In this document: piece after piece, positions 6,454 through 30,876 of the stretch
Layout: every line of letters starts with the position of its first letter
How positions within the stretch are numbered: position 1 is the first letter of the stretch
Source: Chloroflexota bacterium
Lineage (GTDB): Bacteria > Chloroflexota > FW602-bin22 > JACPRP01
Length of the DNA stretch: 61,055 bases
NCBI GenBank assembly: GCA_016210495.1
Contig: JACQUC010000084.1
Span: 1-61,055 of the forward strand
Direction of reading: 5' to 3'
Program-made: the position numbers and the translations under genes
The notes under the pieces: generated by a model
The model's input: the letters and a program-made list of their open reading frames with translations, nothing else
Databases searched by the model: none
Told to the model about the DNA's origin: nothing

Positions 6454-6474
6454 CGCCCGCTCCCTATTGCGCGC

Positions 6475-7032
6475 TCAAACTTCCAGGACCTCTTGCTCTT
6501 TGGCAGCGGCCACGTGCTCGGCCTGCTCGACGAACCTATCGGTTGCTTTTTGCAGTTTCTCCTGCGCCCGCTTCTGGTCGTCCTCGGAAATCAGCTTCTC
6601 CTTCTCCAATTCCTTGAGGTCGTCGATGGCGTCGCGCCGTATGTTACGAATCGCCACCTTTGCCTCTTCCGCCCGCTTGTGAACCACCTTCACAAGCTCG
6701 CGCCGGCGCTCCTCACTCAATCGAGGGATGGCCAACCGGATAACCTTTCCATCATTTGTCGGCATCAATCCCAGGTCAGATTTCATAATGGCTTTTTCGA
6801 TTGGACCAATTGTGGTCTTGTCCCACGGTTGGATGACCAGCAGCCTGGGCTCTGGGGCAGAGATCGTTGCAAGCTGATTGATGGGTGTCGGGGTGCCGAA
6901 GTAGTCCACGTGAACCCGTTCCACCAGGCCTGGACTGGCTCTGCCAGTCCGGATAGTTACCAGTTCGCGCTTCAACGCTTCCACTGCCTTAGTCATCTTG
7001 CCATCGGTTTCCTTCAAAACGTCGTCGATCAT
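6475..7032 (-). CDS. frr: Ribosome recycling factor
   Basis: At 185 residues this is exactly the usual length of the family. It acts with EF-G to split post-termination ribosomes. The sequence contains [20 protein letters not shown] and the following PINQLATI region typical of RRF. I chose ATG at 7032, with AGGTG seven bases upstream. A TTG at 7038 is in frame but overlaps that ribosome-binding site. The 44-bp repeat array separates it from pyrH. Confidence 0.96.
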
Positions 7033-7061
7033 CCCCAATCACCTCTCAATGCTCATACCGG

Positions 7062-7222
7062 AGGGCGAGAAAACCTCGCCCCTACGCCGTGGGATCTTGC
7101 ATCCGGGGGCGAGGAAGCCTCGCCCCTACGCCGTAGGATCTTGCATCCGAGGGCGAGGAGACCTCGCCCCTATGCCGTAGGATCTTGCATCCGAGGGCCA
7201 GGGAACCTCTCCCCTATGCCGG
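7062..7222. repeat. Four tandem copies of a 44-bp REP-like unit
   Basis: Units start at 7062, 7106, 7150 and 7194 with an exact 44-bp period, and the last copy is truncated. Each has the module B hairpin (GGGCGAGG-nnn-CCTCGCCC, with changes in unit 4), then CCTACGCCGT, then GGATCTTGCATCCG. The stem and loop differ between copies while the linker is nearly identical. The array fills the gap between pyrH and frr and would be transcribed within the operon. Confidence 0.92.
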
Positions 7223-7225
7223 AAA

Positions 7226-8519
<1,294 letters not shown>

Positions 8520-8574
8520 CTTTCCTCCACTTGGGGACTGTCTGGCAGAGAGGCACGTAGGTCACAGAGACGTC

Positions 8575-9426
8575 CTACGCGACCGCCTTATCTTCCTCGC
8601 CGGTTCCCTCGGACTCGCCGACGTCCTCGACGGGCGCAGCAGGTACTTCCTCGGAAGGCATCTGGGAAGCCTCGTGTTCGAAGGCCTCCGCGGGCGAGGG
8701 CTTCTCCTCCTCTGCCTGTTCCTCAGCCTGAAGTGACTGGCGAATGTTCTGTCCCTCGATAACTGCATCCGCCAATTTCGCGCAGAGCAGCTTGACAGCC
8801 CTGATAGCGTCATCGTTTGCCGGTATCACGTAGTCGATCTCGTTTGGATTGCAGTTGGTATCGACCAGAGCGACGATCGGAATCTCCAGGCGTCGCGCTT
8901 CGGCCACTGCTATCCTCTCTTTATGTGGATCGATTATGAACACCGCGCTCGGGAGCTGCTTCATCGGCTTGATGCCCGCCAATACGCGGTTCAGCCTGAC
9001 GATCTCTTCGTCCAGGCTGGTGGCCTCTTTCTTCGGCAGGCGCTCGAAATCTCCGGCCGCCTTGCGCTGTTCCAGTTCCTCCAGGCGTCTAATGCGCAAC
9101 TGGATGGTACGGAAGTTCGTTAACATCCCGCCCAGCCAACGCTGGTTAACGTAAAACATTTCACAGCGTCTGGCTTCCTGTTCGACAGCCTCCTGGGCTT
9201 GCTTCTTGGTCCCTACAAAAAGGAGCGTTCCACCTTGTGTGACGCTCTCGCGGACAAAGCTGTAGGCCTCGCCCAGTTTCACGACAGTTTGCTGCAGGTC
9301 GATGATGTGGATTCCGTTGCGCTCCGTGAAGATGTAGGGCTTCATTCTCGGATCCCAGCGTCGTGTGTTGTGTCCGAAGTGCACGCCCGCTTCCAGGAGC
9401 GCTTTCATGGATACGACATTTGCCAT
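8575..9426 (-). CDS. rpsB: Small ribosomal subunit protein uS2
   Basis: At 283 residues this protein is longer than typical S2 because of an acidic Glu/Ala-rich C-terminal tail of roughly 50 residues. The conserved start region ([19 protein letters not shown]) and the [20 protein letters not shown] and ALVDTNCNP motifs are clear. ATG at 9426 follows GGAGGTTACTAAACA. It is the first gene of the rpsB-tsf-pyrH-frr run and has its own promoter and a long leader. Confidence 0.97.
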
Positions 9427-15275: not shown

Positions 15276-15339
15276 TAGGGGCAACCCTGCGTATTTGCCC
15301 TTTGCACGGTTACGGGGCAACCACACAGGGTTGCCCCTA
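15276..15339. terminator. 14-bp inverted repeat between convergent genes (REP module D)
   Basis: TAGGGGCAACCCTG (15276-15289) and CAGGGTTGCCCCTA (15326-15339) are perfect complements separated by 36 bases, between the convergent DUF3105 and OsmC genes. The right arm overlaps the OsmC stop codon. A second copy of the ccttctgcggaagg-type module lies at 15236-15275. It may act as a two-way terminator, although no clear T-run is present. Confidence 0.5.
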
Positions 15340-15756
15340 GTCGTCGACGATACGGAACGTGCTGGTGAGTGCGGCCGACTGGCGTAGCATGGCGCCGACG
15401 GAGCAGTACTTCTCGTCGGAAAGCTCGATGGCCCTTCGCACCGCCTCAGGAGATATCCGTTTGCCGCGTACGATATGCTCCACGGTCATAGAGGTGTAGA
15501 TCCTCGGATAGTCGGCGGCTCGCTCGGCTCTGACGACGATTTCATAGCCAGTTACCTTCTGTCGCTTCTTATGCAAGATGGAAATCACGTCCATACCAGT
15601 GCACGTTCCGAGCGCGAGGAGCAGCAATTCCATGGGCCTGGGCCCGGCGTCTGTACCCCCGGACTCCTGAGCTGCGTCCAGTACTAACGTGTGGCCGGAG
15701 GGCACCGTGCCCACAAATCGCATGCCTTCCTTCAAGCTCAACCGCGCTTCTATCAT
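15337..15756 (-). CDS. OsmC family peroxiredoxin-like protein
   Basis: The 139-residue protein is of normal OsmC length. The two redox cysteines are visible in TCTGMDVISIL and EKYCSVGAML. Family members reduce organic hydroperoxides with thiol cofactors, and the YhfA-like subgroup has unclear substrates. ATG at 15756 has AAGGAG upstream. An open frame extends past it to 15933, but the predicted transcription start (about 15907) and the family length argue for the shorter form. Its promoter shares an operator with the divergent desulforedoxin-like gene. Confidence 0.88.
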   Translation of the reverse strand: MIEARLSLKEGMRFVGTVPSGHTLVLDAAQESGGTDAGPRPMELLLLALGTCTGMDVISILHKKRQKVTGYEIVVRAERAADYPRIYTSMTVEHIVRGKRISPEAVRRAIELSDEKYCSVGAMLRQSAALTSTFRIVDD

Positions 15757-15913: not shown

Positions 15914-15942
15914 ATGCTAGCACAAAGCTTCACGGCCAGGAA
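15914..15942 (-). promoter_or_regulatory. Predicted activator-dependent promoter toward OsmC
   Basis: On the minus strand, TAGCAT (15914-15919) lies 17 bases from TTCCTG (15937-15942), a poor -35. The operator core ends 21 bases before the -10 box and overlaps the -35 by two bases. This is the geometry of a class II LuxR-type activator site centred near -43. Confidence 0.55.
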
Positions 15943-15960
15943 CTACCCACTTGGGTAGTT
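15941..15960. promoter_or_regulatory. Palindromic operator, copy 1 (AACTACCC-N4-GGGTAGTT)
   Basis: A perfect 8-bp inverted repeat (9-bp arms if the adjoining A/T pair is counted) lies between the divergent OsmC and desulforedoxin-like genes. The same 20-bp pattern with the same four-base spacer occurs at 23740-23759. The half-site TGGGTAGTT resembles sites of LuxR/GerE-type helix-turn-helix proteins. Confidence 0.75.
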
Positions 15961-15988
15961 TGCGGCAACTGTCGCATCCGCGTATACT
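15960..15988 (+). promoter_or_regulatory. Promoter of desulforedoxin-like gene 1
   Basis: TTGCGG (15960-15965) and TATACT (15983-15988) are separated by 17 bases. The palindrome ends 22 bases before the -10 box and touches the -35 box. Transcription would start near 15995, some 18 nt before the ATG. Confidence 0.7.
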
Positions 15989-16012
15989 AAGATGCGTTGG
16001 AGGCAAGATCGT

Positions 16013-16132
16013 ATGGCAAATGATGTCGGAAAGCGCTATATTTGCACAAAATGCGGGTCGGAAGTCATTGTGACCAAAGGTGGCACGGGCTCGCTGAAGT
16101 GCTGCGGCCAAGAGATGCAGCGAAAGAGCTAG
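16013..16132 (+). CDS. Desulforedoxin-like mini-protein 1 (39 aa)
   Basis: The whole protein is one rubredoxin-like knuckle: YICTKCG near the N-terminus and LKCCGQEM near the C-terminus, giving the Cys-x2-Cys and Cys-Cys pairs that bind one iron in desulforedoxin and in the N-terminal domain of desulfoferrodoxin. GGAGG lies nine bases before the ATG. Desulforedoxins are small electron carriers, and no superoxide reductase domain is attached. A similar 47-residue protein is encoded at 21895-22038. Confidence 0.85.
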   Translation: MANDVGKRYICTKCGSEVIVTKGGTGSLKCCGQEMQRKS

Positions 16133-16215
16133 TGCCTTCCGCGCCGTGTCGTCGCGTGGGTGTCGGCCGCGGAGCGGCCTAAGTCACGTAGGGATGGCCT
16201 AGAAGCTTACGATTT

Positions 16216-17796
16216 GTGGCTAGATCGCGTGAGGAATCGGTTGGGCCGCCCGACCTGATCCTTCTGAGCAGCACAATACTGACGCCTTCGTCCGCCTTGC
16301 CGCGACAAGCAGCGGTGGTGGTGCGTGACGGACTGATAACGCACGTCGCGTCACAAGACGAGGCCGTGTCCTTGCGTGGGCCTCGCACGGTGGTGCTCGA
16401 ATTCCCCGGCAAGTGCGTTGTCCCAGGCTTTCACGACGCTCACATCCACCTTCTGGCCTGCGCTGCTAACCGACTGGGCGTAGATTGTGGCCCCGGCGCG
16501 GTGAGTAGCATCAGCGGCATACAGCAGGCCATCCAGCAGCGCGCGCATTCGCTGCCGGCCGGGACGTGGATTCGGGCCGGTAACTACGATGAGTTCCGAT
16601 TGGCCGAGCGCAGACACCCCACGCGCTGGGACCTGGACGTGGCGGCGACCGAGCATCCTGTGAAGCTGCAGCATCGTTCCCTCCACGCCAGTGTCCTCAA
16701 CAGCGTCGCGCTCCAGAGGGTGGGGATGTTGGGCGCGCGTTCGCAGTATCCACGGGATCTGTCGGATGGGACCGATCGGACCAGTCAGGAATCCGATGGT
16801 CTGCTTTACGAGCAGGATGATGTCCTGAACGCGATTACGCCTATAGCCGAAGAGGAACTGCGCGGCTCTCTGAGGGTTGTGCTGAGCGATTTGCTGGCCG
16901 AGGGAATCACCTCCGTGCACGATGCCACGTTTCGCAACGGCCTTGCCGATTGGAATCGCCTGCGCGACGTTTGCGCCGAGGCAGGCTTGCGCCCCCGGAT
17001 CGGGTTTATGGTGGGGCTACCAAATGTGGAGCAGTTTGCCGCAGCGGGCCTTGCGCCGGGCTTTGGGGACGAGTGGCTGAGAATTGGTGGGGCAAAGGCT
17101 ATGCTCACCGAGGCCGACGGGTGCTTTCGCCCGTCGACTGAGGAACTGGGGGCGCAAGTGCGTCACGCGCGGCGCCTCGGCTATTGGGTCGCGGTTCACG
17201 CCGTCGAGGAGTCGTGCGTCTGCGTCGCGGTCGAGGCGCTGGCGGGCACGGCCTTCCGTTCATCTGCGATTGCCCACCGGATCGAGCACGCTTCTATCGT
17301 GCCGCCGCCCCTTGTCGATCGGATGGCGGAGGCCAGGGTCGCGGTCGTGACTCAGCCTGGGTTCATCTACCACAGCGGGGACCGGTATCTGGCCGATGTC
17401 GAGGAGCACCTGCACCCGTGGCTCTACCCTCTCAGGAGCCTACTAAAAAAGGGCATACCTGTGGGGGCCGGGTCCGATGCGCCTGTTGCGCCGGCAAGGC
17501 CACTGGAAGGGATTTGCGCGGCGGCCACTCGCATGTCATCTGGCGAACGAGGCGTGGGACAGCGAGAGAAGATCACAGTGGAGCAAGCGCTTGGTCTATA
17601 TACTTCTGGATCGGCACTCGCGTGCGGAGAGGCTGGGTCGAAGGGCGCGATCCAGCCCGGGAAGCTGGCGGATCTGGTGGTCCTATCGGCCGATTTGGTG
17701 CAAATTGCTCCCTATGATATCAAGAACGTCGAGGTCGAGATGACGATCGTCGGCGGCATAGTGGCTTGGGCGAAGGGAGGCACTATTGAAGTATAA
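16216..17796 (+). CDS. YtcJ-type metal-dependent amidohydrolase
   Basis: The 526-residue protein is an amidohydrolase-3 family member. The N-terminal metal motif is HDAHIHL. Later ligands lie in VAVHAVEES and HRIEHAS, and the catalytic Asp in GAGSDAPV. The C-terminal part returns to the small beta-sandwich (GKLADLVVLSADL). Family members hydrolyse amides or related bonds, and the substrate cannot be read from sequence. The GTG start at 16216 has only a weak ribosome-binding site. It overlaps the crotonase gene by 11 bases, so it is probably part of the acyl-CoA operon. Confidence 0.85.
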   Translation: MARSREESVGPPDLILLSSTILTPSSALPRQAAVVVRDGLITHVASQDEAVSLRGPRTVVLEFPGKCVVPGFHDAHIHLLACAANRLGVDCGPGAVSSISGIQQAIQQRAHSLPAGTWIRAGNYDEFRLAERRHPTRWDLDVAATEHPVKLQHRSLHASVLNSVALQRVGMLGARSQYPRDLSDGTDRTSQESDGLLYEQDDVLNAITPIAEEELRGSLRVVLSDLLAEGITSVHDATFRNGLADWNRLRDVCAEAGLRPRIGFMVGLPNVEQFAAAGLAPGFGDEWLRIGGAKAMLTEADGCFRPSTEELGAQVRHARRLGYWVAVHAVEESCVCVAVEALAGTAFRSSAIAHRIEHASIVPPPLVDRMAEARVAVVTQPGFIYHSGDRYLADVEEHLHPWLYPLRSLLKKGIPVGAGSDAPVAPARPLEGICAAATRMSSGERGVGQREKITVEQALGLYTSGSALACGEAGSKGAIQPGKLADLVVLSADLVQIAPYDIKNVEVEMTIVGGIVAWAKGGTIEV

Positions 17797-18589
17797 GACG
17801 ATTCTGCACGAGAAGAACAGGGATGTCTGCACCATCACGCTAAACCGGCCGGAGGTGCTCAACGCCATCAACAACGAATTGGCGAGGGAACTGCTGGATG
17901 CTGTTGAAAGCGCGAACGATGACTACGACGTGCGCGCGGTGGTGCTAACCGGCGCGGGCGAGCGAGCGTTCAGTGTGGGGCTCGACCTCAAGGAACTGGT
18001 CGACGCGGCCGATGGCGTCGAGGACATTCCCACGTTGCTCGAGATACGTCGCCGAGTTTGGAGCTGCAATCCGTGGGAGCGATTGGCGGGCATCTCCAAG
18101 CCAACAATAGCCGCAATAAGTGGCTTCGCGCTGGGCGGTGGACTCGAACTGGCCTTGGCCTGCGACATACGGATTGCCTCGCACGACGCAACCTTCGGTT
18201 TTCCCGAGGTGCGTCTTGGAATCATCCCGGGCAGGGGGGGCACCCAGCGTCTTCCGCGCATCGTTGGACGGGGCAAGGCGTTGGAGATGCTTCTGACAGG
18301 CGAGACCATCGACGCTGGCGAGGCGCACAGGGTCGAGCTCGTCGGCACGGTCGTTGCTGGGGAGCAGCTTCTCGATACGGCCAGGGACCTGGCCACAAAG
18401 CTGGCCGCCCACGCGCCGTTGGCGGTTCGGCTCGCGCGGGAGGCGGTGACCAAGGGACTGGATATGACGCTGGATCAGGGCCTTCGTCTGGAGACCGATC
18501 TGTCCGTGATGCTGCAGACGACCGAGGATCGAGCCGAGGGCATCCGCTCGTTTGTCGAGAAGCGCAAGCCGAAGTTTGAAGGAAGGTAA
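17786..18589 (+). CDS. Enoyl-CoA hydratase/isomerase (crotonase) 1
   Basis: The 267-residue crotonase has the oxyanion-hole segments GLDLKELVD and SGFALGGGLELALACD. The acidic residues expected of hydratases are present in GGGLE and FPEVRLGIIPGRGGTQRLPR. The TTG at 17786 has GGGAGG five bases upstream and overlaps the preceding stop. It is likely a hydratase in a CoA-linked degradation or modification pathway with the CoA-transferases that follow. Confidence 0.9.
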   Translation: MKYKTILHEKNRDVCTITLNRPEVLNAINNELARELLDAVESANDDYDVRAVVLTGAGERAFSVGLDLKELVDAADGVEDIPTLLEIRRRVWSCNPWERLAGISKPTIAAISGFALGGGLELALACDIRIASHDATFGFPEVRLGIIPGRGGTQRLPRIVGRGKALEMLLTGETIDAGEAHRVELVGTVVAGEQLLDTARDLATKLAAHAPLAVRLAREAVTKGLDMTLDQGLRLETDLSVMLQTTEDRAEGIRSFVEKRKPKFEGR

Positions 18590-18622
18590 CCCCCGTCGTG
18601 AACGGTAAAAGGAGGGATGGAT

Positions 18623-19780
18623 GTGAAGGCGTCCGAGGGCGCGCTCGAGGGCGTGACGGTGTTCGACCTGACTTCCGGCGTCGCCGGTCCATATTGCACA
18701 CGCCTGCTGGCCGGGCTGGGGGCCGAGGTGATCAAGATCGAGGAGCCCCCGCAGGGCGACGTGTCGCGTAGTGTCACGCCGATTAGCCCGGGACAACCCA
18801 CCTTGGAGCAAAGCGCCCTCTTTCACCACCTTAATTGCGGCAAGCAGAGCGTCGCGATTAGCCTGAAGACGGCGGAGGGCAGAAGGCTGTTCGGGGGGTT
18901 GGCGCGACAGGCGCAGGTCGTCGTGGAGGACTTCGCGCCGGGCACATTGGACGCGATGGGGCTTGGCTACTCCTCCCTTAGTGGCGAGAACACGGCCCTC
19001 GTGATGACTTCGATCGCGCCCTTCGGTCAGGATGGGCCTTACCGCGACATGAGGGCCACGAACCTCACCTGCCTGGCTATGGGGGGCATGCTTTACACGT
19101 GCGGAGAGCCAGGACGCGAGCCTCTAAAGGTGGGCGGATTGCAGGCCGAGTACTTGGCCGGGCTTAACGCGGCGGCGGCCACGCTGGTCGCTGTCCTGGT
19201 CGCCGAGGCGAGGGGCACAGGCCAGTGGATCGACGTCTCCATCGTCGAATCCGTGGTGACGGCGCTGGAGGCAACAGCAGTGACCTTCTCGCGAGATAGG
19301 GAGGTGCGGCGGCGACAGGGGAACCGACACGGACGCGCCCATCCCATGACCATCCTGGCTTGCAGAGACGGCTACGTCGGCGTGATGGTGGCTTGCGACG
19401 AGGACTGGGAGCTTCTTGCCCGGCTCGCAGGGGTGAACGAACTGCTTGCTCCAAGGTTTGCCAAAGGCGAGCAGAGGCTTAGGCTCGCCGAGGAGATAGA
19501 CGCTTTGCTGCGATCCTTCCTCGTGGAACGCACGCGCGAGGAGCTATTCCATCGGGCACAGGAACTCCGACTGCCTTTCTCGATCGTGCTCACGCCACAG
19601 GAAGCTCTGGACGATCCGCAGCATGAGGCTCGGGGCTTCTTCACAAACGTGGAACATCCAGCGGCCGGCGAGGTGCTCCAGGTTGGTGCGCCCTTCAAGA
19701 TGAGCGAGACTCCCTGGCGGGCAGGTAGGGCGCCTATGTTGGGGGAGCATACCGAGAACGTTCTGCGAGAGCGACTTTGA
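18623..19780 (+). CDS. Class III (CaiB/BaiF) CoA-transferase 1, catalytic Asp replaced by Glu
   Basis: The 385-residue protein shows the family's N-terminal GVTVFDLTSGVAGPYCTRLLAGLGAEVIKIE and GTGQWIDVSIVES motifs. In the active-site stretch, where Asp-x3-Gly is usual, it reads QAEYLAGL, so Glu appears to sit at the catalytic Asp position. I start at GTG 18623, seven bases after GGAGG. The ATG at 18617 is too close to it. It is paired with a second CoA-transferase that keeps the Asp. Confidence 0.88.
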   Translation: MKASEGALEGVTVFDLTSGVAGPYCTRLLAGLGAEVIKIEEPPQGDVSRSVTPISPGQPTLEQSALFHHLNCGKQSVAISLKTAEGRRLFGGLARQAQVVVEDFAPGTLDAMGLGYSSLSGENTALVMTSIAPFGQDGPYRDMRATNLTCLAMGGMLYTCGEPGREPLKVGGLQAEYLAGLNAAAATLVAVLVAEARGTGQWIDVSIVESVVTALEATAVTFSRDREVRRRQGNRHGRAHPMTILACRDGYVGVMVACDEDWELLARLAGVNELLAPRFAKGEQRLRLAEEIDALLRSFLVERTREELFHRAQELRLPFSIVLTPQEALDDPQHEARGFFTNVEHPAAGEVLQVGAPFKMSETPWRAGRAPMLGEHTENVLRERL

Positions 19781-19782
19781 TT

Positions 19783-21078
19783 ATGCGGGGCCAAGCTGTG
19801 GAATCTGGGCTGCGAGGCAGTAGGCTGGCATTAAGAGGGGTTCGGGTCGTCGACCTGACTTCGATGTGGGCCGGGCCGCTCTGCACGAGGGTGCTCGCGG
19901 ACCTCGGGGCCGAGGTGATCAAGATCGAGATGCCGGCGCGGCCGGATGGCACACGGAGTAATCCCGGCTACTTCAGTTGGCTGAACCGTAACAAGCTCGC
20001 CGTGGCCCTGGACCTCAGCGTGCCTGCTGCTAAGGAGTGCTTCAAGCGGCTGGTGAAAGTAAGCGATGTGGTCGTAGAGAGCTTCAGCTCTCGCGTGATG
20101 AAGAACTTGCGGCTGGACTACAGTGTTCTGAGAGAGCTGAAACCGGACATCGTTATGCTCTCCATGCCGGCCTATGGCTCAAGCGGGCCATACGCCAACT
20201 ACGTAGCCTATGGCCCGGGCCTGGAGGCTTCGTCGGGAATGGCGGCGATAACCGGCTATCGGGATGGGGACCCGATGTTGTCGGGATCGGCCTACGGCGA
20301 TCCGGTTGCCGGGATGCACGGGGTAGTGGCCGTTCTCGCCGGACTGAGGTGTCGGCGACGCACCGGCAAGGGCCAGTGGATCGATCTTTCGCAGCGAGAG
20401 GCGCTGTCGCAGATGTTTGGCGAGGTTTTCGTAAGGGCGGCGCGCGGGAATAATGACTTAGCCTGGGGCAACCGGGAGCTGACGATGGTGCCGCACGGCT
20501 GCTACAGGTGCCGAGGGGATGATCGGTGGATTGCGCTGGCGGTTGGCTCGGATGAGGAATGGCGCGGGCTGTGCCAAGTGATGGGGAGAGCCGGGCTGGC
20601 AGATGACCCGAGATTCGCCAGCACCGAAGCCCGCAGGGTCAACGAAGACGAAGTGGATCGAGTGGTGGAGTTGTGGACGCAGCAGATGGAGCGCGACGAG
20701 GCGATGAGGGTGCTGCAAGCGGCGCATCTGGCGGCCGGGGTGGTTATGGATGCACGAGACCTTGCAAACGATCCGCATCTGGCTGCGCGGGGCTTTTTTG
20801 AGATCGGAATGGATGTCGAAGGGAACTGGGGCGCCTTTCCGAGCTTGCCGTGGAGAGTGGCGGGTTGGGCGCGCCCTCACCCTAACCCTCTCCCAGAGGG
20901 AGAGGGGACTGGACCGCCTCTCCCTCTGGGAGAGGAGACTTACCCTTTGCCTTCCGTAATGGAAGAGAGGACAGGCTTGAAGAAGCCGGCGCGTGCGCCG
21001 AGAGTGGGGGAGCATAATCGTCGGGTGCTGGGAGAACTGCTGGGGCTTTCTGACGCAGAGATAGAGGGTTTAGCATGA
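19783..21078 (+). CDS. Class III (CaiB/BaiF) CoA-transferase 2
   Basis: The 431-residue protein shows LRGVRVVDLTSMWAGPLCTR, ADLGAEVIKIEMP and the active-site segment AYGDPVAGM with the expected Asp. Start is ATG 19783. An in-frame TTG at 19777 overlaps the previous stop and is an alternative. Near residues 363-388 a repeat-encoded insert (PHPNPLPEGEG and onward) breaks the domain just before the conserved C-terminal GEHNRRVLGELLG. It probably forms a pair with the preceding gene. Confidence 0.88.
   Translation: MRGQAVESGLRGSRLALRGVRVVDLTSMWAGPLCTRVLADLGAEVIKIEMPARPDGTRSNPGYFSWLNRNKLAVALDLSVPAAKECFKRLVKVSDVVVESFSSRVMKNLRLDYSVLRELKPDIVMLSMPAYGSSGPYANYVAYGPGLEASSGMAAITGYRDGDPMLSGSAYGDPVAGMHGVVAVLAGLRCRRRTGKGQWIDLSQREALSQMFGEVFVRAARGNNDLAWGNRELTMVPHGCYRCRGDDRWIALAVGSDEEWRGLCQVMGRAGLADDPRFASTEARRVNEDEVDRVVELWTQQMERDEAMRVLQAAHLAAGVVMDARDLANDPHLAARGFFEIGMDVEGNWGAFPSLPWRVAGWARPHPNPLPEGEGTGPPLPLGEETYPLPSVMEERTGLKKPARAPRVGEHNRRVLGELLGLSDAEIEGLA
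20876..20945. repeat. Palindromic repeat inserted in frame in a CoA-transferase gene
   Basis: Two consecutive imperfect hairpins (CCTCTCCCAGAGGGAGAGG and CCTCTCCCTCTGGGAGAGG) preceded by CACCCTAACC lie within the coding sequence. They encode a Pro/Gly/Glu-rich loop that does not belong to the family. The reading frame stays open. Confidence 0.8.
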
Positions 21079-21854
21079 AGTTCAAGACCGTGGTCTATGA
21101 GAAGAGTGGGGACGTCGCACACGTGGTGCTCAATCGGCCGGAGGCGCTTAATGCGTACAACGTGCAGATGCGCGACGATCTGTACGAGGTGTTCACGGCG
21201 GTTAGGGACGACCCGGAAGTGCTGGTGATGATTGTATCTGGCTCAGGCCGGGCGTTTTGTGCAGGGGCCGATCTTAGCGAGTTCGGCAGGGCGCCTTCGC
21301 CAATCGTCGCTAGGGACGTGCGGTGGGAACGCGACTTGTGGGGGGTGCTCAAGGATCTGGACAAGATTACCATCGCGGCGATGCACGGCCACGCGCTGGG
21401 ATCCGGGCTGGAAATGGCTCTCTTCTGCGATCTGCGTGTGGCTGCCGAGGGGACCCAGTTCGGACTGCCCGAAGCGGCGCTAGGATTCATCCCGGCGGCG
21501 GGAGCCACGCAGAGTCTGCCGAGGATCGTGAAGGGCGGCACGGCCCTGGCGATGATACTTGCCTGTCAAAGAATCAACGCGGTAGAAGCTCATCGCATCG
21601 GGCTGGTACATCGCGTCGTGGCGAAGGAGTCGTTGCTGGCCGAGGCGGAAGGAATGGCCCGAAGTGTTCTGAAGGCAGGGCCGGTGGCTCTGGCTTTGGC
21701 GAAGGAAGCCGTGAATAGGGGCCTGGACCTTAGCCTCAAAGAGGGCCTTGCCTTGGAAGCACGTTTGGCTGAATTTGCTTTCGCCACGCGGGACGCGTGG
21801 GAGGGTCTGCACGCACGGGTATGCGGCCGCGAGCCCAAGTTCCGGGGGAGCTAG
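21075..21854 (+). CDS. Enoyl-CoA hydratase/isomerase (crotonase) 2
   Basis: The 259-residue crotonase has RAFCAGADLSEF, GHALGSGLEMALFCD and LPEAALGFIPAAGATQSLPR, so both usual acidic active-site positions appear present. The ATG overlaps the upstream stop in ATGA, which points to coupled translation. Length and motifs resemble its partner at 17786, but the two are clearly diverged. Confidence 0.9.
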   Translation: MKFKTVVYEKSGDVAHVVLNRPEALNAYNVQMRDDLYEVFTAVRDDPEVLVMIVSGSGRAFCAGADLSEFGRAPSPIVARDVRWERDLWGVLKDLDKITIAAMHGHALGSGLEMALFCDLRVAAEGTQFGLPEAALGFIPAAGATQSLPRIVKGGTALAMILACQRINAVEAHRIGLVHRVVAKESLLAEAEGMARSVLKAGPVALALAKEAVNRGLDLSLKEGLALEARLAEFAFATRDAWEGLHARVCGREPKFRGS

Positions 21855-21894
21855 ACGAGGAGAGATCTCCTGCTGATATTCGTACCGTTTGCCA

Positions 21895-22038
21895 TCAGTC
21901 TGCTGAGGGCAGGGGCTTGACCTGCTTTAGCTGCATCTGGTTCTCGCAGCACAGCACCGAGCCTTCTCCCGCTTTCGTGCAGAGCACCTCTGTCCCACAT
22001 TCCTCGCAGAAATACCGCTTTCCAAGCTCGTTTGCCAT
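21895..22038 (-). CDS. Desulforedoxin-like mini-protein 2 (47 aa)
   Basis: The protein begins MANELGKRYFCEECG and has LCCENQM about 20 residues later, so it retains the Cys-x2-Cys and Cys-Cys pairs. It is clearly homologous to the 39-residue protein at 16013, with a short C-terminal tail and an extra Cys at position 20. It starts 23 bases after the stop of the acyl-CoA ligase on the same strand, so it is the second gene of that operon. Confidence 0.85.
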   Translation of the reverse strand: MANELGKRYFCEECGTEVLCTKAGEGSVLCCENQMQLKQVKPLPSAD

Positions 22039-22061
22039 CGACAGCCTACTCAACCTTTCTA

Positions 22062-23621
22062 TCAGGGTCTCGCCGCATAGGCGGCCTTCAATTCCTTCTT
22101 AATTACCTTGCCTAGGGGATTGCGTGGCAGCGACTCTATGAATACAAGTCGTTCGGGCTTCTTGAAACTCGCCAGCCGTTGTCGGCAGAACTCCTTGATC
22201 TCCTCGGCCGTCGCCACCGCGCCATCTTTCAGGACCACGACGGCCATTACCGCCTCGCCCCATTCCTCATCAGGATACCCGATTACGGCGGCTTCTTCAA
22301 GAGCCGGATGGGACTGAAGCACAGCCTCGATCTCCGCCGGCGCGATGTTCTCGCCACCACGGATGATCAAATCGTCCTTGCGCCCGGCGAGAAACAAGTA
22401 GTCGTCTTCATCTACCCACCCCAAGTCCCTGGTGCGTATCCAACCTCCCACCAGCACATCTCGCGTCAGGTCTTCCGCACCTGCGTACCCTTTCATCAGC
22501 CGGCCGGTCCGCACCATTATCTCGCCGATCTCGCCTCGTGGCACTTGCTGGCCAGCCTCGTCCACGATCTTGACCTCAACATCCGGCAGGGGCCGGCCAA
22601 TCGAGCTGAGCCGCCGGAGCTTTTTCTCCACCTCCTCCGTGGTTCCTTCCAAGCAGTGGTCCTCTGGTAGGAGCATCGTCACCGTGGACGTGGTCTCGGT
22701 TTGCCCAAACGCGTTGATGAGGCCGATGTGCTTTGGGAGTTTCTCGATGGCTTGTCTGATCACCGGCTGAGGCATGGGCGCCGCGCCGTAGGAAATGGTT
22801 TCCAGACTGCAGAGATCGCTCTCCGCGGATTGGTACTCGTCAAGCAGGCGCTTGAGCATAGTAGGAACAAGAAATGCGTTGGATATCCTCTCCTGTTGGA
22901 CGAGGTGCAACCAACCCTGGGGATCAAACTGGCGCATAAGCACGAGACGGCGCCCACTGTAGATAGATGTCATAAAGGTGGTGGCGCCGGCGATGTGGTA
23001 CAAGGGAACGCAAACCAAAGTCGCTCCCCAGCGCGTGCCGTCCGCTGGCTCAACTGTCCCGAACACGTACTCGATGAAGTTGGCGTAGCTTAGTTGGACG
23101 GCCTTCGGCAAGGACGTAGTCCCGCTCGTGAACATCAAGATGTTGGTTTCGTCGCCCTCCACGTCCTCCTCGGATTCGTCGGCAGATGCCACCTCCAGGA
23201 GGTCTTCAAGATACAACATCTCAGGCTGCTTTGTTTCGATTGCGATCCAGCGCTTGACCGATGGTATGTCGTCGCGAAGCGACATAGCCAGATCGGCGTA
23301 GCGGTCGCCCAGCAGAAGGGCATCGACGCGTGCCGTATTGACCATGTACTTGAGTTCATCGACCTTGGCCCGATAGTTCAGCGGCACGAAGGTGCCGCCC
23401 AGCTTAGAAGTAGCGTAGAAGGCCTCGACGTACTGGTTGGAGTTCGTCTGAAGCACGGCGACGCGGCTGCCACGGCCCAAATCAAGCGACCGCAAAACAT
23501 TGGCCAGGCGGTCGACTCGGTTTTGGAGCTGGCCGTAGGTCAGTCTCGCGCGCTCGAATACTAACGCCTCTTGGTCCGGGAACATAGCCGCGGGGATCGA
23601 GAGAAAGCAGGCCGTGTTCAA
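22062..23621 (-). CDS. Acyl-CoA synthetase (AMP-forming)
   Basis: The 519-residue ANL-family ligase activates a carboxylate as acyl-AMP and then acyl-CoA. It has the phosphate loop [21 protein letters not shown], the RTRDLGW hinge region, GRKDDLIIRGGENIAPAEIE and the C-terminal PRNPLGK lysine, so it looks fully active. TTG at 23621 matches the start of its paralogue at 26298. The frame stays open to 23684. The N-domain closely resembles that of the fusion protein upstream. Its promoter carries operator copy 2. Confidence 0.92.
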   Translation of the reverse strand: MNTACFLSIPAAMFPDQEALVFERARLTYGQLQNRVDRLANVLRSLDLGRGSRVAVLQTNSNQYVEAFYATSKLGGTFVPLNYRAKVDELKYMVNTARVDALLLGDRYADLAMSLRDDIPSVKRWIAIETKQPEMLYLEDLLEVASADESEEDVEGDETNILMFTSGTTSLPKAVQLSYANFIEYVFGTVEPADGTRWGATLVCVPLYHIAGATTFMTSIYSGRRLVLMRQFDPQGWLHLVQQERISNAFLVPTMLKRLLDEYQSAESDLCSLETISYGAAPMPQPVIRQAIEKLPKHIGLINAFGQTETTSTVTMLLPEDHCLEGTTEEVEKKLRRLSSIGRPLPDVEVKIVDEAGQQVPRGEIGEIMVRTGRLMKGYAGAEDLTRDVLVGGWIRTRDLGWVDEDDYLFLAGRKDDLIIRGGENIAPAEIEAVLQSHPALEEAAVIGYPDEEWGEAVMAVVVLKDGAVATAEEIKEFCRQRLASFKKPERLVFIESLPRNPLGKVIKKELKAAYAARP

Positions 23622-23712
23622 TGGTCTGTCCCATTTCAGACTTGTCGCCAGCACGTTCGTCCAGCAAAAGTCAGCCAGTCTCAACTGCTGGAACGATGTC
23701 CTGATCGCGCTG

Positions 23713-23741
23713 ATGGTAGCACGGCGATTGAAGCGCGAAAA
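23713..23741 (-). promoter_or_regulatory. Predicted activator-dependent promoter of the ligase/desulforedoxin operon
   Basis: On the minus strand, TACCAT (23713-23718) lies 17 bases from TTTTCG (23736-23741), a very weak -35. The operator core ends 21 bases before the -10 box, exactly as at the OsmC promoter. Transcription would start near 23706, giving a leader of about 85 nt. Confidence 0.55.
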
Positions 23742-23761
23742 CTACCCAAGCGGGTAGTTTT
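23738..23761. promoter_or_regulatory. Palindromic operator, copy 2 (AACTACCC-N4-GGGTAGTT)
   Basis: A perfect inverted repeat with 10-bp arms, AAAACTACCC-aagc-GGGTAGTTTT, lies between the LuxR fusion gene and the downstream ligase gene. The 20-bp core (23740-23759) is the same as copy 1 at 15941-15960, including the four-base spacer length. Confidence 0.78.
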
Positions 23762-23853: not shown

Positions 23854-26298
23854 CTATGATGGTGAGGTGAAGGCTTTGGCGAGCAACTCAGAGCGGGAGC
23901 TGACCTGCAGCTTATAGAAGATACGCTTCAAGTGGTGCTTCACGGTGTTGGTAGTGACCACAAGGGACTCGGCTATCTCTTTGTTGTGCATCCCCTGCGC
24001 GAGCAGCTCAAGCACCTCGATTTCACGTTTGGACAAGAGGGAGGTCAGGTGCTGAAAGTTCGGCGTTTGTTCGAGATTATAGAGGAACGTCACGACCGTG
24101 CGCTGAGCGGATGGGATGCGCATTGAGCGCAGGATCAGTGACCCGTTGCCGCCAAGATTACTTCTCCGAAGGCGAATCGTGCTGGTCACAATGCGCTTGC
24201 CCTCAGATTCCATCTCCGAGAGGTTGTTGCGTAATCCCTGTCGCACGCGCTCCGCCATCACGGGGTCTGCGCCGTCCAGGCCGATCAGCTTCCGCGCCTG
24301 AATGTTGACGAACTTGACGTCGCCTTTGGTGTCGCTGACGACGACGGCGGCACCGATGACCTGCAAGGCTCCTTCTGCCAGCGTATAGCGCTCGCGAATC
24401 TCAGCTTGCTTTAGCGCGTGGCCCACCACGACGCACATGTGGCGGGCCAACACTCTGATCTTGCCCAAATCCGAGGAATCGAACATAGGCTGTCGTGTGG
24501 TACGTGCGAAGCTCAAGGTTCCCAAAAGCTGACCGCGCTCGCCAACAAGGGGGGCGCGAGCGAAACGAGCCAGTCGATGGACCTCCAGAAGTTCCTGCTG
24601 CGGATGGCGATGCCATTGGGTTTCTGCCGGGGGAAACCCACCCGGCGCCAACTCGAGGGTCCAGTTGGCGCTGGCAGGAAGAGGGTCGTGTGTGCGCCAG
24701 AGGCGCGGCTCGGGGTCCAGGAAATCGTCGAGGGGGTCCGGCATCGCCAGCCAGGCAGGATAGCTCGCAAGCGGATCGAGGACGTGAAAGCCGTAGGCGG
24801 CTGCGGAAACGAGATTTGGCACGGCCCCGAGGTAGTTAGTCCGCAAATCGTCGAGCTCCAGGCTATCGTATACCTCGCTTAGAAAGTGTACGATTTCGCC
24901 CACTTCGACGCCGCCGAAGAACGCCTCCCGGAGCGGCGTGCCGGCCCTGGCACCGATGGCGCGACGGCAAACGGTGGGTACGTCAGGATACAATACCACG
25001 GCCTTGATCTCGGACGCGCCGGTGCTCTCGGGGTTCTGAAGAGAAACGTCGTTCCTCCGTCCCGCTAGAAACACGTAGTCATCTTCGTCCATCCAGCCGA
25101 GGTCTCTGGTCCGCATCCAGCCATGCACCAGTACTTCCCTCGTGAGGTCTTCGGATCCTGCATATCCTTTCATAAGCCGACCGGTCCGGACCAATATCTC
25201 CCCAATCTCGCCTCGTGGCACCTCTCGGCCACTTTCGTCCACGACCATGATCTCCACATCCGGCAGTGGCCGGCCGATGGAGCTCAGTCGCCTCAGCTTC
25301 TTGTCCACCTCGTCCGGGGTCCCCTCCAGCCGGTGGTCCTCGGGCAGCAGCATTGTAACCGTCGAGGTCGTTTCGGTCTGGCCGAACGCGTTGATGAAGC
25401 CCACCTTTCTCGGTAACTTCTCGATGGCCTCGCGAATGACCGGCAGTGGCATCGGGGCTGCACCGTAGGATAGGGTTTCCAGGCTGCTGAGATCCGCCTT
25501 CGCCAGACCCGGCTCATCTAGCAGACGCTTGAGCATCGTGGGCACGAGAAAGGCGTTCGTTATCCGCTCGCGTTGGACGAGCCGCAGCCATTCCCTGGCG
25601 TCGAACTGGCGCATCAGAACGAGCCGCCGTCCGCCGTAGATCGAGGTCATAATGGCCATGGCGCCGGCGATGTGGTAGATTGGAGCGCAGAGCAGCGTTG
25701 CTCCCCAGTGGACGCCGTCGGCCGGCTCGACGGCCTCGAAGATATACTCAATGAAGCTGCGGTAGCTAAGCATTACTGCTTTTGGCACAGCAGTGGTGCC
25801 GCTAGTGAAGATCAGGAGATTCGTCTCGTCGCCCTCCAGGTCCTCCTCGACCTCGTGGTTTGGCGCGTCGCTAATGAGATCCTCAAGCGACAGCATCCCC
25901 GTCCGCTTCTTCTCCATGGCGATCCAGTGCTTGATGGGAGGCAGGTCGCGACGCAGCGAAAAGGCCAGGTCGACATATCTGTCTCCTACCAGAAGCGCAT
26001 CCACCTCGGCGGTGCCGATAATGTACTTGAGCTCGTCGATCTTTGCGCGATAGTTCAGCGGCACGAAGGTGCCGCCCAGCTTGGAAGTGGCGTAGAAGGC
26101 CTCGACGTACTGGCTGGAGTTCGCCTGAAGAACGCCAACGCGGTTTCCCGTGCCCAAACCCAGCGAGCGAAGGGCATTGGCCAGACGAATAACTCGCTCC
26201 TGTACCTGGCTGTAGGTGAGCCTAGTGTTCTCGAAGACCAGGATTTCCTGGTCTGGGAACATCATTGCTGGAATGGAAAGAAACCAGGCGGTGTTCAA
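23854..26298 (-). CDS. Acyl-CoA ligase N-domain fused to GAF-PAS-LuxR transcription regulator
   Basis: The 814-residue protein has an AMP-forming ligase N-domain (about 1-415) with [11 protein letters not shown] near 164, [10 protein letters not shown] near 304, and [13 protein letters not shown]. Just after the hinge (GRRND) it departs from its paralogue. The C-terminal ligase subdomain and the catalytic GK lysine are missing. A GAF-like domain (about 455-630) and a PAS-like segment (about 635-735, [15 protein letters not shown]) follow, then a LuxR helix-turn-helix (about 750-814, [15 protein letters not shown] and [14 protein letters not shown]). It probably binds a carboxylate or acyl-adenylate as a signal. 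TTG is the start. It has a strong promoter of its own. Confidence 0.88.
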
Positions 26299-26334: not shown

Positions 26335-26362
26335 AGTCTAGCATGGGCACATTTCTTGTCAA
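26335..26362 (-). promoter_or_regulatory. Sigma-70-type promoter of the ligase-LuxR fusion gene
   Basis: On the minus strand, TTGACA (26357-26362) and TAGACT (26335-26340) are separated by 16 bases. This suggests constitutive expression of the regulator. No AACTACCC palindrome is near it. Confidence 0.75.
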
Positions 26363-27541: not shown

Positions 27542-28330
27542 ATGCGAGCCATGTGGTCCGGGTCGATCAGTTTTGGGCTGGTGAACATACCGGTCCGCTT
27601 GTACAAGGCGACCGAAGAGACGGGACTTGATTTTGACTACCTTCACAAGGAAGATCTGGCGCGGATCAGGTATGCCAGGATGTGCTCGGCCGAGGGGCGG
27701 GAGGTACAGCCACAGGAGATCGTGCGTGGCTACGAGTATGAGAAAGGCGAATACGTGGTGATGGCCGAGGAAGATTTCAAGCTGGCGGCTCCGGCGAAAA
27801 CCAGGTCTATTGAAATAATGCATTTCGCTCTGGAAAACGAAATTGATAGCATGTACTTCGAAAGGGCCTACTATCTCGAACCGGACAAAGGGGCGAGCAA
27901 AGCCTACGTTCTGCTGCGGGAGGCATTGAAGGAAACACAGAAAGTGGGAATAGCCAGGTTTGTTCTCAGCAACCGGGAACATCTCGCCGCGGTCAAACCG
28001 AGGGACCACGTGATCGTGCTCAACCAGCTCAGATTCCATCAGGAGATACGAAAGGGCCAGGAGTTGAAGATACCGGAGGCCAGGACGGAGCGTAAAGAGA
28101 TTGACCTGGCGGTCGCACTGATCGAACAGCTTACCGTGCCGTTTGAGCCCGACAAGCATCGGGACACGTACACGGATGAGCTCAAGCGGGTCATCGACGA
28201 GAAGATAAGAGGGATAACGCCCGTCGGGGTGGCCAGGGAGCCCGAACCCGCCCGGGTCAAAGACCTTATGGAGCTGTTGAAAGCGAGTCTGGATCGAGAA
28301 AGGCAGCGAGAGAGGGCGAAGGCGTCGTGA
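27542..28330 (+). CDS. ku: Non-homologous end-joining protein Ku
   Basis: The 262-residue bacterial Ku homodimer subunit binds DNA ends and recruits LigD. The start MRAMWSGSISFGLVNIPVRLYKAT is diagnostic. The core continues with IRYARMC, EDFKLAAP and the strand pair around YFERAYYLEPDK, and the C-terminal tail is short and basic. ATG at 27542 has AAGGGG seven bases upstream. It overlaps ligD at the stop. Confidence 0.95.
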   Translation: MRAMWSGSISFGLVNIPVRLYKATEETGLDFDYLHKEDLARIRYARMCSAEGREVQPQEIVRGYEYEKGEYVVMAEEDFKLAAPAKTRSIEIMHFALENEIDSMYFERAYYLEPDKGASKAYVLLREALKETQKVGIARFVLSNREHLAAVKPRDHVIVLNQLRFHQEIRKGQELKIPEARTERKEIDLAVALIEQLTVPFEPDKHRDTYTDELKRVIDEKIRGITPVGVAREPEPARVKDLMELLKASLDRERQRERAKAS

Positions 28331-30876
28331 TGTCGAATGGCCTCGAGGAGTATCAAAAGAAGAGAAGGCTCGAAAAGACGCCGGAACCCAAGGTAGAGGT
28401 GCGCCCTCCAGGCGACGAGCTTTCATTTGTCGTACAGAAACACAAGGCTTCGCATCTGCACTATGACTTCCGATTGGAGTTGGATGGAGTTCTCAAGAGC
28501 TGGGCGGTGCCGAAAGGGCCGACGCTTGACCCCAAGGTAAAGCGCCTGGCTATGATGGTCGAGGACCATCCCATAGATTATCGGAGCTTCGAAGGAGTTA
28601 TTCCCGAAGGAAACTATGGCGCCGGATCGGTCATCGTGTGGGACTCGGGCACCTATCACTCCCCGGAAACGACTGAGAGGGGCCGGAGTGAGTTGCTGCT
28701 GAGACAAGGGCTCGGCCGCGGCAATCTGAAGTTCGTTTTGCATGGGGAGAAGTTACAAGGCGAGTTCGCCCTTGTCAGGCTCAAGAAGGCGGGCGAGAAC
28801 GCATGGCTCTTGATCAAAAAGCTGGACGGTGCCGCAAGAGACGGCGATGTTACGGAGAACGATCGTTCGGTCCTATCGAATCGAACGGTAGCTGAAGTGG
28901 AGGCGAGCGAAGCAGTAGAGGACGTCAACCTGCAGTTGAGTGATGCGCCCCTGGGCGAGATGCCTCGGAATGTCTATCCGATGCTGGCGAGCCTTGTCGA
29001 AGAAGTGTTCGACGATCCGGATTGGGTATACGAGGTGAAATGGGATGGTTATCGCGCCATTGCCGAAGTGTCTGAGCAAACGGTACGGCTGTATTCGCGC
29101 AACCAGCGAAGCCTGAGCCGAGCTTTCGCGCCGGTGGTAGATTCGCTCAAGCGGCTGGGGCACAGCGCTGTGCTCGACGGAGAAGTGGTGGTCGTCGACG
29201 AAAGCGGGAAAGCGAACTTCCAGCTCCTGCAGAATTTTGAGCTCGGTGCTCGTGGCAATCTCGTTTACTACGTGTTCGACTTGCTTTACCTCGATGGGCA
29301 CGATCTGCGCAAGCTGCCGTTGCTCCGGCGACAGCGGATTCTGCGCCAGGTACTGTCCGACCTTCCTCACATTCGATTTAGCGACCACGTCGAAGGGACG
29401 GGCATCCTGTTTTTCAGGGCGGCGGCGGAACAAGGCTTGGAGGGAATCGTCGCCAAGAAGAAGGACAGTATCTACGAAGAGGGTGAAAGAAGCCGCAAGT
29501 GGCTCAAGGTAAAGAAGCAAATGCGACAGGAGGCCGTGATCGCGGGCTTTACGGAACCGCGCGGTGGCAGAACGCATCTGGGGGCGCTGATACTGGGGGT
29601 ATACGATGCAGGCGAGCTGGTCAATATTGGCCACTGCGGCGGCGGCTTCGACGAAAGAACGCTTGGCGATGTCAGGAAGAAGCTCGATCCGCTGATTCGA
29701 GAGACCGCACCTTTTCGGACTCCGCCGAGGACCAACGCGCCGGTGCACTGGGTCAGGCCTGAGCTCGTCTGCGAGGTGCGATTCTCGGAATGGACGGACG
29801 ATGGCCTGATGCGCCATCCTGTTTTTATGGGACTGCGAATGGATAAGCGAGCGGAAGAGGTGCGACGCGAGTTGCCAAGCAGGGTGCCAAAAGAGGAGGC
29901 TTCGCGATGGGGACAGGGCCTCCGATTGCGTATTGGCGGGCGGGCGCTGCAGTTGACGAATCTGGACAAGGTCTACTGGCCCGGCCAGGGCTACACGAAG
30001 AGAGATCTCATAGATTACTATCGGAATGTCGCGCCGATTCTCCTTCGGCACGTGCGAGACCGACCGCAGAACCTGCTCAGACATCCTGAGGGGATTACTG
30101 GAGCTAGCTTCTATCAAAAGGATGTCGACGAGCAGCCGCCAAAATGGGTCACAAGGGTTCGGATAGGCTCCGAATCGAAAGAGCGGGAGATCACCTATCT
30201 GGTTTGCCAGGACGAGGCGACGCTAGTATACCTGGCAAATCTGGGCTGCATCGAGATCAATCCGTGGAACTCTCGACTTGGTACACTGGACTTCCCTGAT
30301 TACCTTGTGCTCGATCTCGATCCGCTGGGTGTTGGCTTCGACGCGGTGGTCGAGGCGGCGCTGGTGATTCGGGAGATCCTGGAATCCGCCGGCGCCCCCA
30401 GTTACTGCAAGACTTCGGGCGCGACAGGGATGCACATTTACGTGCCCATGGGAGCCCGGTACGACTACGAATCGGCCAGGACGTTCGCGCTAATCGTGGC
30501 GCACATAGCAAGTGGGAGGCTTCCCGCGACGACGAGTGTGGAACGCAGCCCCGGCAGACGGCGGGGTAAGGTATACATAGATTGCCTGCAGAACCGGCGA
30601 GGCCAGACGCTGGTAGCGCCTTACAGTGTTCGCGCCAGGCCGGGTGCGCCCGTGTCGACCCCCCTGAAATGGGAGGAAGTACACCGAAGCCTCGATCCTG
30701 CGGCGCATACGATGAAGACGGTTTTGCAGAGGATCGATGAGATCGGCGACGCATTCATGCCGGTGCTCGGGAAGGGCATTGACCTGCAAACTTGCATCGA
30801 CAATCTCAATAGCGGCGTGATCGGAGTTGGAAGAGGTCTTGGACCGCTAAGTCGCGTCGCAGGCGAATCTCAGTGA
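28330..30876 (+). CDS. ligD: Multifunctional DNA ligase D (PE-ligase-polymerase)
   Basis: The 848-residue protein has the order phosphoesterase (about 25-190; HKASHLHYDFRLELDG), ATP-dependent ligase (about 210-520; nucleotidyl Lys in VKWDGYRA, then DGEVVVVDESG and EGIVAKKKDS) and primase-polymerase (about 545-840; LTNLDKVYWPGQG, LVLDLDPLG and the SGATGMHIYVP motif). This PE-LIG-POL order matches Pseudomonas-type LigD. The ATG overlaps the ku stop (TGATG). A GTG three bases earlier is an alternative start. With ku it forms a complete two-gene end-joining system. Confidence 0.95.
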   Translation: MSNGLEEYQKKRRLEKTPEPKVEVRPPGDELSFVVQKHKASHLHYDFRLELDGVLKSWAVPKGPTLDPKVKRLAMMVEDHPIDYRSFEGVIPEGNYGAGSVIVWDSGTYHSPETTERGRSELLLRQGLGRGNLKFVLHGEKLQGEFALVRLKKAGENAWLLIKKLDGAARDGDVTENDRSVLSNRTVAEVEASEAVEDVNLQLSDAPLGEMPRNVYPMLASLVEEVFDDPDWVYEVKWDGYRAIAEVSEQTVRLYSRNQRSLSRAFAPVVDSLKRLGHSAVLDGEVVVVDESGKANFQLLQNFELGARGNLVYYVFDLLYLDGHDLRKLPLLRRQRILRQVLSDLPHIRFSDHVEGTGILFFRAAAEQGLEGIVAKKKDSIYEEGERSRKWLKVKKQMRQEAVIAGFTEPRGGRTHLGALILGVYDAGELVNIGHCGGGFDERTLGDVRKKLDPLIRETAPFRTPPRTNAPVHWVRPELVCEVRFSEWTDDGLMRHPVFMGLRMDKRAEEVRRELPSRVPKEEASRWGQGLRLRIGGRALQLTNLDKVYWPGQGYTKRDLIDYYRNVAPILLRHVRDRPQNLLRHPEGITGASFYQKDVDEQPPKWVTRVRIGSESKEREITYLVCQDEATLVYLANLGCIEINPWNSRLGTLDFPDYLVLDLDPLGVGFDAVVEAALVIREILESAGAPSYCKTSGATGMHIYVPMGARYDYESARTFALIVAHIASGRLPATTSVERSPGRRRGKVYIDCLQNRRGQTLVAPYSVRARPGAPVSTPLKWEEVHRSLDPAAHTMKTVLQRIDEIGDAFMPVLGKGIDLQTCIDNLNSGVIGVGRGLGPLSRVAGESQ

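Follow-up and report, generated by a model that had tools for sequence, protein, structure and literature searches.

NarL of Escherichia coli activates the ogt promoter from 7-2-7 sites, one of which is centred at -44.5 and abuts the -35 element (PMC7419079). PAS-LuxR regulators such as PimM have the operator CTVGGGAWWTCCCBAG in the -35 region, and their targets are mostly in antibiotic clusters (PMC9774167). RamA of Corynebacterium is a LuxR-type protein that regulates acetate and central carbon metabolism and has the binding motifs A/T/C-GGGG-N or A/T/C-CCCC-N (PMC4847777). Enzyme-derived regulators are already known as well. BzdR, which controls a benzoate (acyl-CoA) pathway, has an effector domain that stems from an inactivated enzyme (PMC3602430), and FadD1 of Pseudomonas aeruginosa is an active acyl-CoA ligase that serves as a fatty-acid receptor, regulates transcription and is said to bind promoter DNA (PMC12754631). 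The present analysis concerns a 20 bp palindrome and a ligase-LuxR fusion protein in a 61,055 bp contig of a Chloroflexota bacterium (JACQUC010000084.1; the whole stretch is termed the window). With a probability of roughly 80%, the locus represents an activator-controlled acyl-CoA catabolic regulon, in which the palindrome is an operator bound by the fusion at class II promoters. A literature search, with most subscription journals outside its reach, gave among the top matches listed no description of this operator, the regulator family or the ligase-LuxR fusion.

The locus resembles the NarL-controlled ogt and yeaR promoters in its LuxR/GerE-type helix-turn-helix (HTH), its inverted half-sites and the position of the operator by the -35 element (PMC7419079). 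NarL is a phosphorylated response regulator, whereas no receiver domain was found in the window's fusion, for which Pfam gives AMP-binding and GerE domains plus a sub-threshold sigma70 r4 match. The palindrome half-site is TACYY, and the NarL heptamer presumably starts with the same letters (TACYYMT-N2-AKRRGTA); the 7-2-7 spacing, however, is not shared, as the halves here are arranged as YY-N4-RR and stand two bases closer. PimM-type regulators also combine a PAS-like sensor with a LuxR HTH and a palindrome in the -35 region of pathway promoters (PMC9774167), but the operator here is ACTACYY-N4-RRGTAGT, the genes are those of acyl-CoA metabolism, and GAF or ligase domains are added. RamA is likewise a LuxR-type metabolic regulator, but has short motifs and not this palindrome (PMC4847777). 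The locus differs from BzdR in that a ligase domain is joined to a C-terminal LuxR HTH and a paralogue of the donor enzyme is the proposed target, and from FadD1 in that the ligase domain is lidless and joined to a dedicated HTH.

The palindrome AACTACCC-N4-GGGTAGTT is present in two exact copies, at the positions given by the initial annotation: 15941–15960 (AACTACCCACTTGGGTAGTT, operator 1) and 23740–23759 (AACTACCCAAGCGGGTAGTT, operator 2), neither being assigned to a strand. They are the sole matches at up to three mismatches in all 61,055 bases. In 100 shuffled windows the mean was 0.07 matches, and two matches were reached in one of the 100. Operator 1 lies in the divergent promoter region between the genes for an OsmC-like protein (minus strand) and desulforedoxin-like protein 1 (plus strand). 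Operator 2 is upstream of the acyl-CoA ligase gene, in the gap that separates this gene from the end of the fusion gene (23854); both genes are on the minus strand. Thus two operators serve three promoters: those of OsmC, desulforedoxin-like 1 and the acyl-CoA ligase. Both copies in the window are at promoters. The two operators differ in their central four bases and in their flanks and so do not resemble copies of a single element. An Rfam scan of the window gave zero matches.

Promoter geometry was counted from the 18 bp core ACTACCC-N4-GGGTAGT; the 20 bp palindrome gives one base less. The -10-like hexamer of the desulforedoxin-like 1 operon, TATACT (15983–15988, plus strand), starts 23 bases past the core. 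Those of OsmC, TAGCAT (15914–15919, minus), and of the ligase, TACCAT (23713–23718, minus), start 22 bases past it and are each preceded by TGC, so that two of the three promoters have TGn ahead of the -10 (an extended -10 in the case of OsmC). The distances of 21 (OsmC), 21 (ligase) and 22 bases (desulforedoxin-like 1) reported earlier correspond to these core-based values. As to the weak -35 elements reported with them, the best hexamers at a spacing of 16–18 bp match the consensus at three of six positions (desulforedoxin-like 1), two (OsmC) and three (ligase), and at random positions the best is usually two or three of six (75%). As the -10-like hexamer is 22–23 bases from the palindrome, the operator centre is predicted near -43.5, in agreement with the earlier estimate of -43 to -44. 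By predicted starts, the promoters have the class II trait of an operator centred at -40 to -45 together with a weak -35.

Support from outside the window comes from relatives of the regulator. The GAF-PAS part of the fusion, compared with genome contigs, gave a single match, a stand-alone GAF-PAS-LuxR gene (P0024, locus L001) of an actinobacterial metagenome-assembled genome, and directly upstream of this gene is ACTACCTCCCTGGGTAGT. In a set of 99 related genomes that includes this one (G001), the regulator family (E <= 1e-25) is found in four: G001, G003, G006 and G009. The exact sequence ACTACCY-N4-RGGTAGT occurs six times in the 99 genomes, three times in G001, twice in G006 and once in G009; three of the four regulator genomes therefore have it versus none of the other 95 (Fisher p = 2.6e-5). 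With the pattern reversed as a control, six genomes had one match each, none of them among the four. In each of the four regulator genomes the palindrome adjoins regulator genes. When up to two mismatches are allowed, five of the six closest regulators have a site no more than about 460 bp upstream, versus none of four distant paralogues. The fetched loci, about 166 kb in total, contain 12 such sites, and six Markov shuffles gave 1, 0, 0, 0, 0 and 0. Most sites in the relatives adjoin regulator genes or genes of acyl-CoA type. A search of the phylum gave matches in four of 396 genomes, namely G006 and three with distant relatives only, and a search of the class gave the same four (of 399 genomes).

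The two window sites and 12 from relatives, picked regardless of the -10, make up 14 sites at which the layout can be compared. The initial annotation had suggested looking in relatives for the palindrome 18–24 bases upstream of -10 boxes, and in genomes with relatives of the fusion's regulatory half the outcome is positive. TANNNT starts 22 or 23 bases past the core at 13 of the 14 sites (14 of 28 sides), and the remaining 73 offsets combined gave 10 matches. The nominal p is about 1e-20 (calculated with 11, not 10, off-offset matches), a value that overstates the case because several sites are orthologous, in the same genome or side by side; the layout stands out even without this statistic. 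The pattern CTAC-N8-GTAGT-N22-23-TANNNT occurs 11 times in the four regulator genomes (12.6 Mb) versus three times in 22 others (81.1 Mb), and a rate test gives 6e-8. The reversed pattern occurs once and six times, respectively, and a pattern with the palindrome one base longer zero times and twice. Across the 14 promoters at 13 sites, the consensus is ACTACYY-N4-RRGTAGT followed by TANNNT, the exceptions being one T-to-C and one G-to-T change. The best -35 hexamers (16–18 bp spacing) match at one to four of six positions, none above four. The palindrome is thus very probably what this LuxR family uses as its operator at class II promoters. Given the fixed promoter distance and the recurrence of the layout beside this regulator family in distant relatives, the window's pair appears to be a genuine on-switch of acyl-CoA metabolism.

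Several observations weigh against this picture. The 14 sites are not fully independent, as they include orthologues, neighbours and sites of a shared genome, and the loci of the relatives were fetched for having a site or a regulator. One two-mismatch site (L020:16818) has no TANNNT at 22–23 bases. One of the three layout matches outside the regulator genomes (in G005) is in a region 97.8% identical to the HyuA promoter region of G001; the other two are TACTAC-rich. A -35 match of four of six is seen in three of the 14 promoters versus 8.6% of random positions; the three include the PreA-like promoters of G001 and G006, which are related. Relatives with readable DNA have stand-alone GAF regulators and not fusions, with 34% identity over the GAF-PAS part. 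One close regulator (L009, G001:C138) has no nearby site, nor has the distant L011, even though its TVKHH is also found in the recognition helix of the window's regulator. Finally, the targets in the window and in the relatives differ, save for a ligase and general acyl-CoA metabolism.

An operator common to all LuxR paralogues is ruled out, as L011–L014 have no site at up to two mismatches. The helix sequence is TVK[YH]H in the site-bearing regulators and TVKSHLKR in L012–L014; helix and operator do not track perfectly, since L011 carries TVKHH without a site. A variant palindrome with three mismatches, ATCACCC-N4-GGGTGGT (L012:2733–2750), was observed upstream of one TVKSHLKR paralogue. Perhaps the recognition helix and the operator co-vary, as this variant may suggest.

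The initial annotation proposed that one activator, probably the fusion, controls the three promoters, and the recurrence of the palindrome/-10 layout in regulator-bearing genomes supports this proposal. It is likely, though a little less so than the operator assignment itself, that in the window the palindrome is bound by the fusion, and if so the direction is very likely activation. A NarL/LuxR-type activator with a GerE HTH would read the palindrome, with a dimer contacting the two TACYY half-sites centred near -43.5 and standing in for the -35 element. The bound fusion would bring RNA polymerase to the OsmC promoter, to that of the presumed operon of desulforedoxin-like 1, an amidohydrolase, two enoyl-CoA hydratases and two CoA-transferases, and to that of the acyl-CoA ligase and desulforedoxin-like 2. 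The fusion itself would be expressed from its own -35-containing promoter.

An operator that overlaps the -35 would fit repression as well: the same LuxR-type protein, or another palindrome binder, might block RNA polymerase at this element until a ligand intervenes, and some LuxR-type regulators do repress, e.g. RamA at bca (PMC4847777). A repressor, however, has no need of the lock of 22–23 bases between operator and -10 that is kept at 13 of 14 sites. Moreover, as no promoter has a -35 better than four of six, something should replace this element, whereas the fusion's own promoter has TTGACA. Repression is accordingly considered unlikely. It is more improbable still that a different regulator encoded elsewhere in the genome, such as a TetR, MarR or GntR protein, binds the palindrome and that the fusion is nearby by coincidence. 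A GntR-FCD gene does adjoin the regulator in L001, but the proteins scanned in these loci, encoded by a part of the open reading frames, include no other recurring regulator. The palindrome, in contrast, tracks this LuxR family over 99 genomes and adjoins its genes in G001, G003, G006 and G009, and the half-site suits a NarL-like HTH.

Further inverted repeats are found nearby, and the palindromes might then be chance occurrences or a mobile repeat. This explanation is set aside as exceedingly improbable: there are two copies only, both at promoters, with unlike spacers and flanks and a locked promoter spacing, and the layout recurs in other genomes. A perfect 19 bp inverted repeat (CCTCTCCCAGAGGGAGAGG, 11 nt loop; 20887–20935) lies in frame within the second CoA-transferase open reading frame, as if a small repeat element had been inserted there. 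A 25 nt inverted repeat with 88% complementarity (TAGGGGCAACCCTG..., 15276–15339) lies directly downstream of OsmC and is possibly a repeat element or a terminator.

The candidate activator is encoded at 23854–26298 on the minus strand. It has an ANL N-domain (residues 13–379), a GAF/PAS-like middle and a GerE/NarL-type HTH (754–806). Pfam recognizes AMP-binding (PF00501, 9.6e-83) and GerE (PF00196, 5.9e-18), and among the 32 window open reading frames scanned by Pfam or NCBIfam, a part of those in the window, the fusion is the sole carrier of a recognized DNA-binding regulator domain. In the fusions and stand-alone regulators scanned, Pfam gave no autoinducer-binding domain. With a profile of the family HTH, the NarL HTH is the best solved match (7.8e-14); with the window HTH alone as query, NarL ranks eighth, with slightly higher scores for other response regulators. 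In an AlphaFold model of the fusion (mean pLDDT 72.6; residues 417–576 mostly below 50) the ANL N-domain is closest to that of FadD5 (TMt 0.86). A model of a stand-alone relative (mean pLDDT 71.4) was matched only locally by GAF domains and by VqmA and EL222, presumably PAS-HTH proteins. A promoter-like sequence, TTGACA-16-TAGACT (26335–26362, minus), precedes the fusion gene; it is consensus-like and has no palindrome, and five promoter-like sites were found around this gene versus 1.9 expected. Autoregulation of the window's fusion is ruled out by the absence of a nearby palindrome and by this consensus-like promoter.

The ligase part of the fusion is 74% identical to the neighbouring ligase over 435 residues. 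It is an adenylate-forming ANL N-terminal domain with ATP-binding motifs (kept in P0002). A search of 5.8 billion proteins with the C-terminal 385 residues (7993 candidates of 0.55–1.75 times the query length scored) found eight other ligase-LuxR fusions, one of them (P0011) a fragment; the architecture is rare. The lid motif PxNxxGK, with the catalytic lysine, is present in none of the nine fusions versus 10 of 11 ligases compared, and the lid domain PF13193 was not found by Pfam in the window's fusion or in P0012. The P-loop is broken in P0006 and altered in P0012. In precomputed Pfam data, a GAF domain is recognized in all 12 stand-alone relatives versus one of nine fusions. In a tree, the fusions group with close ligases in one clade (100/99) whose inner branching is poorly resolved, and the fusions may or may not have a single origin. 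For five of the eight other fusions (P0005, P0007, P0009, P0010 and P0012), the longest contig equals in length that of a near ligase homologue among the matches listed (120 of 3077), the homologues paired with them being P0050, P0051, P0047, P0048 and P0052. Because of this equal length, fusion and close ligase homologue are probably linked in these five cases too. A plasmid search gave no record covering 80% of the fusion, and the matches listed (five of 2815) reach the ligase half only.

The chance is about even that the lidless ligase domain acts as a sensor, and it would then sense the carboxylate, adenylate or acyl-CoA of the pathway. A history of similar standing is that a ligase copy lost its lid and joined a GAF-PAS-LuxR regulator, that the GAF domain eroded, and that the product senses the substrate or adenylate of the ligase and activates the true ligase and its pathway by way of a NarL-like operator that distant relatives also use. 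The local regulator seems to be built from a copy of the enzyme it controls. This would be a testable enzyme-to-regulator case beside BzdR, in which the proposed target next door is closely paralogous to the donor enzyme, and the sensor ligand might be deduced from the parent ligase. A LuxR-type family also gains an operator sequence and a promoter geometry.

The two operators flank one inward-transcribed acyl-CoA gene set, which consists of a plus-strand cluster and the minus-strand ligase and desulforedoxin-like 2 genes. OsmC lies outside the pair at the left and the regulator gene outside at the right. The plus-strand genes are tightly spaced: desulforedoxin-like 1 (16013–16132, 39 aa; PF06397, 1.4e-09), then, as recognized by Pfam, Amidohydrolase_3 (16216–17796), a first enoyl-CoA hydratase/isomerase (17786–18589), two CaiB-type CoA-transferases of family III (18617–19780 and 19777–21078) and a second hydratase/isomerase (21075–21854). 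On the minus strand are desulforedoxin-like 2 (21895–22038, 47 aa; PF06397, 4.7e-05, 23.4 bits with a cut-off of 23) and the acyl-CoA ligase, complete with C-terminal lid (22062–23621; the TTG start was placed by comparison with the fusion and further homologues, frame open to 23684). The OsmC-like protein (PF02566, 4.4e-18) is at 15337–15756 on the minus strand, with 15756 the start chosen here and the frame open to 15933. The targets first named were OsmC, the ligase and two homologous desulforedoxin-like proteins. The identities stand, with Desulfoferrodoxin_N-like domains and 58% identity over 38 residues between the latter two; desulforedoxin-like 2, however, has no palindrome of its own and is the second gene behind the ligase.

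The regulon had been called small, which may be too narrow, as the same operator seems to place further genes (acyl-CoA, ketone or lactam) under related regulators. Class II promoters are predicted in G001, G006 and G009 ahead of both dihydroorotate-dehydrogenase/PreA-like genes and HyuA-type genes; the HyuA-type gene of G001 is followed by HyuB and methylmalonyl-CoA mutase genes. Others are predicted ahead of an acyl-CoA ligase and of a thiolase/acyl-CoA dehydrogenase operon in G001, ahead of substrate-binding protein genes in G001 and G003, and twice ahead of the regulator itself in G009. In L001 (G001), G006 and G003 the class II promoter faces the divergent neighbour, away from the regulator gene. 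In G009 (L021:1455–1520) a pair of operators with a distance of 48 bp serves the divergent class II promoters of regulator and HyuA. The PreA-like and HyuA-like targets of G006 (L018:9275–10225 and L018:16279–17340) are shorter than their G009 counterparts (316 versus 446 aa and 353 versus 695 aa), which may reflect sequencing error or decay.

Elsewhere in the window, uppS, pyrH-like and rpsB genes at 5710–9426 are good phylogenetic markers. Matches to the S2 protein, of moderate similarity only, were obtained for 116 of the 119 genomes in the actinobacterial class of G006, at 44–58% identity except for one 109-residue piece at 64%. Near the cluster, at 28327–30876, is a gene for a three-domain LigD (phosphoesterase, ligase and polymerase) of non-homologous end joining.

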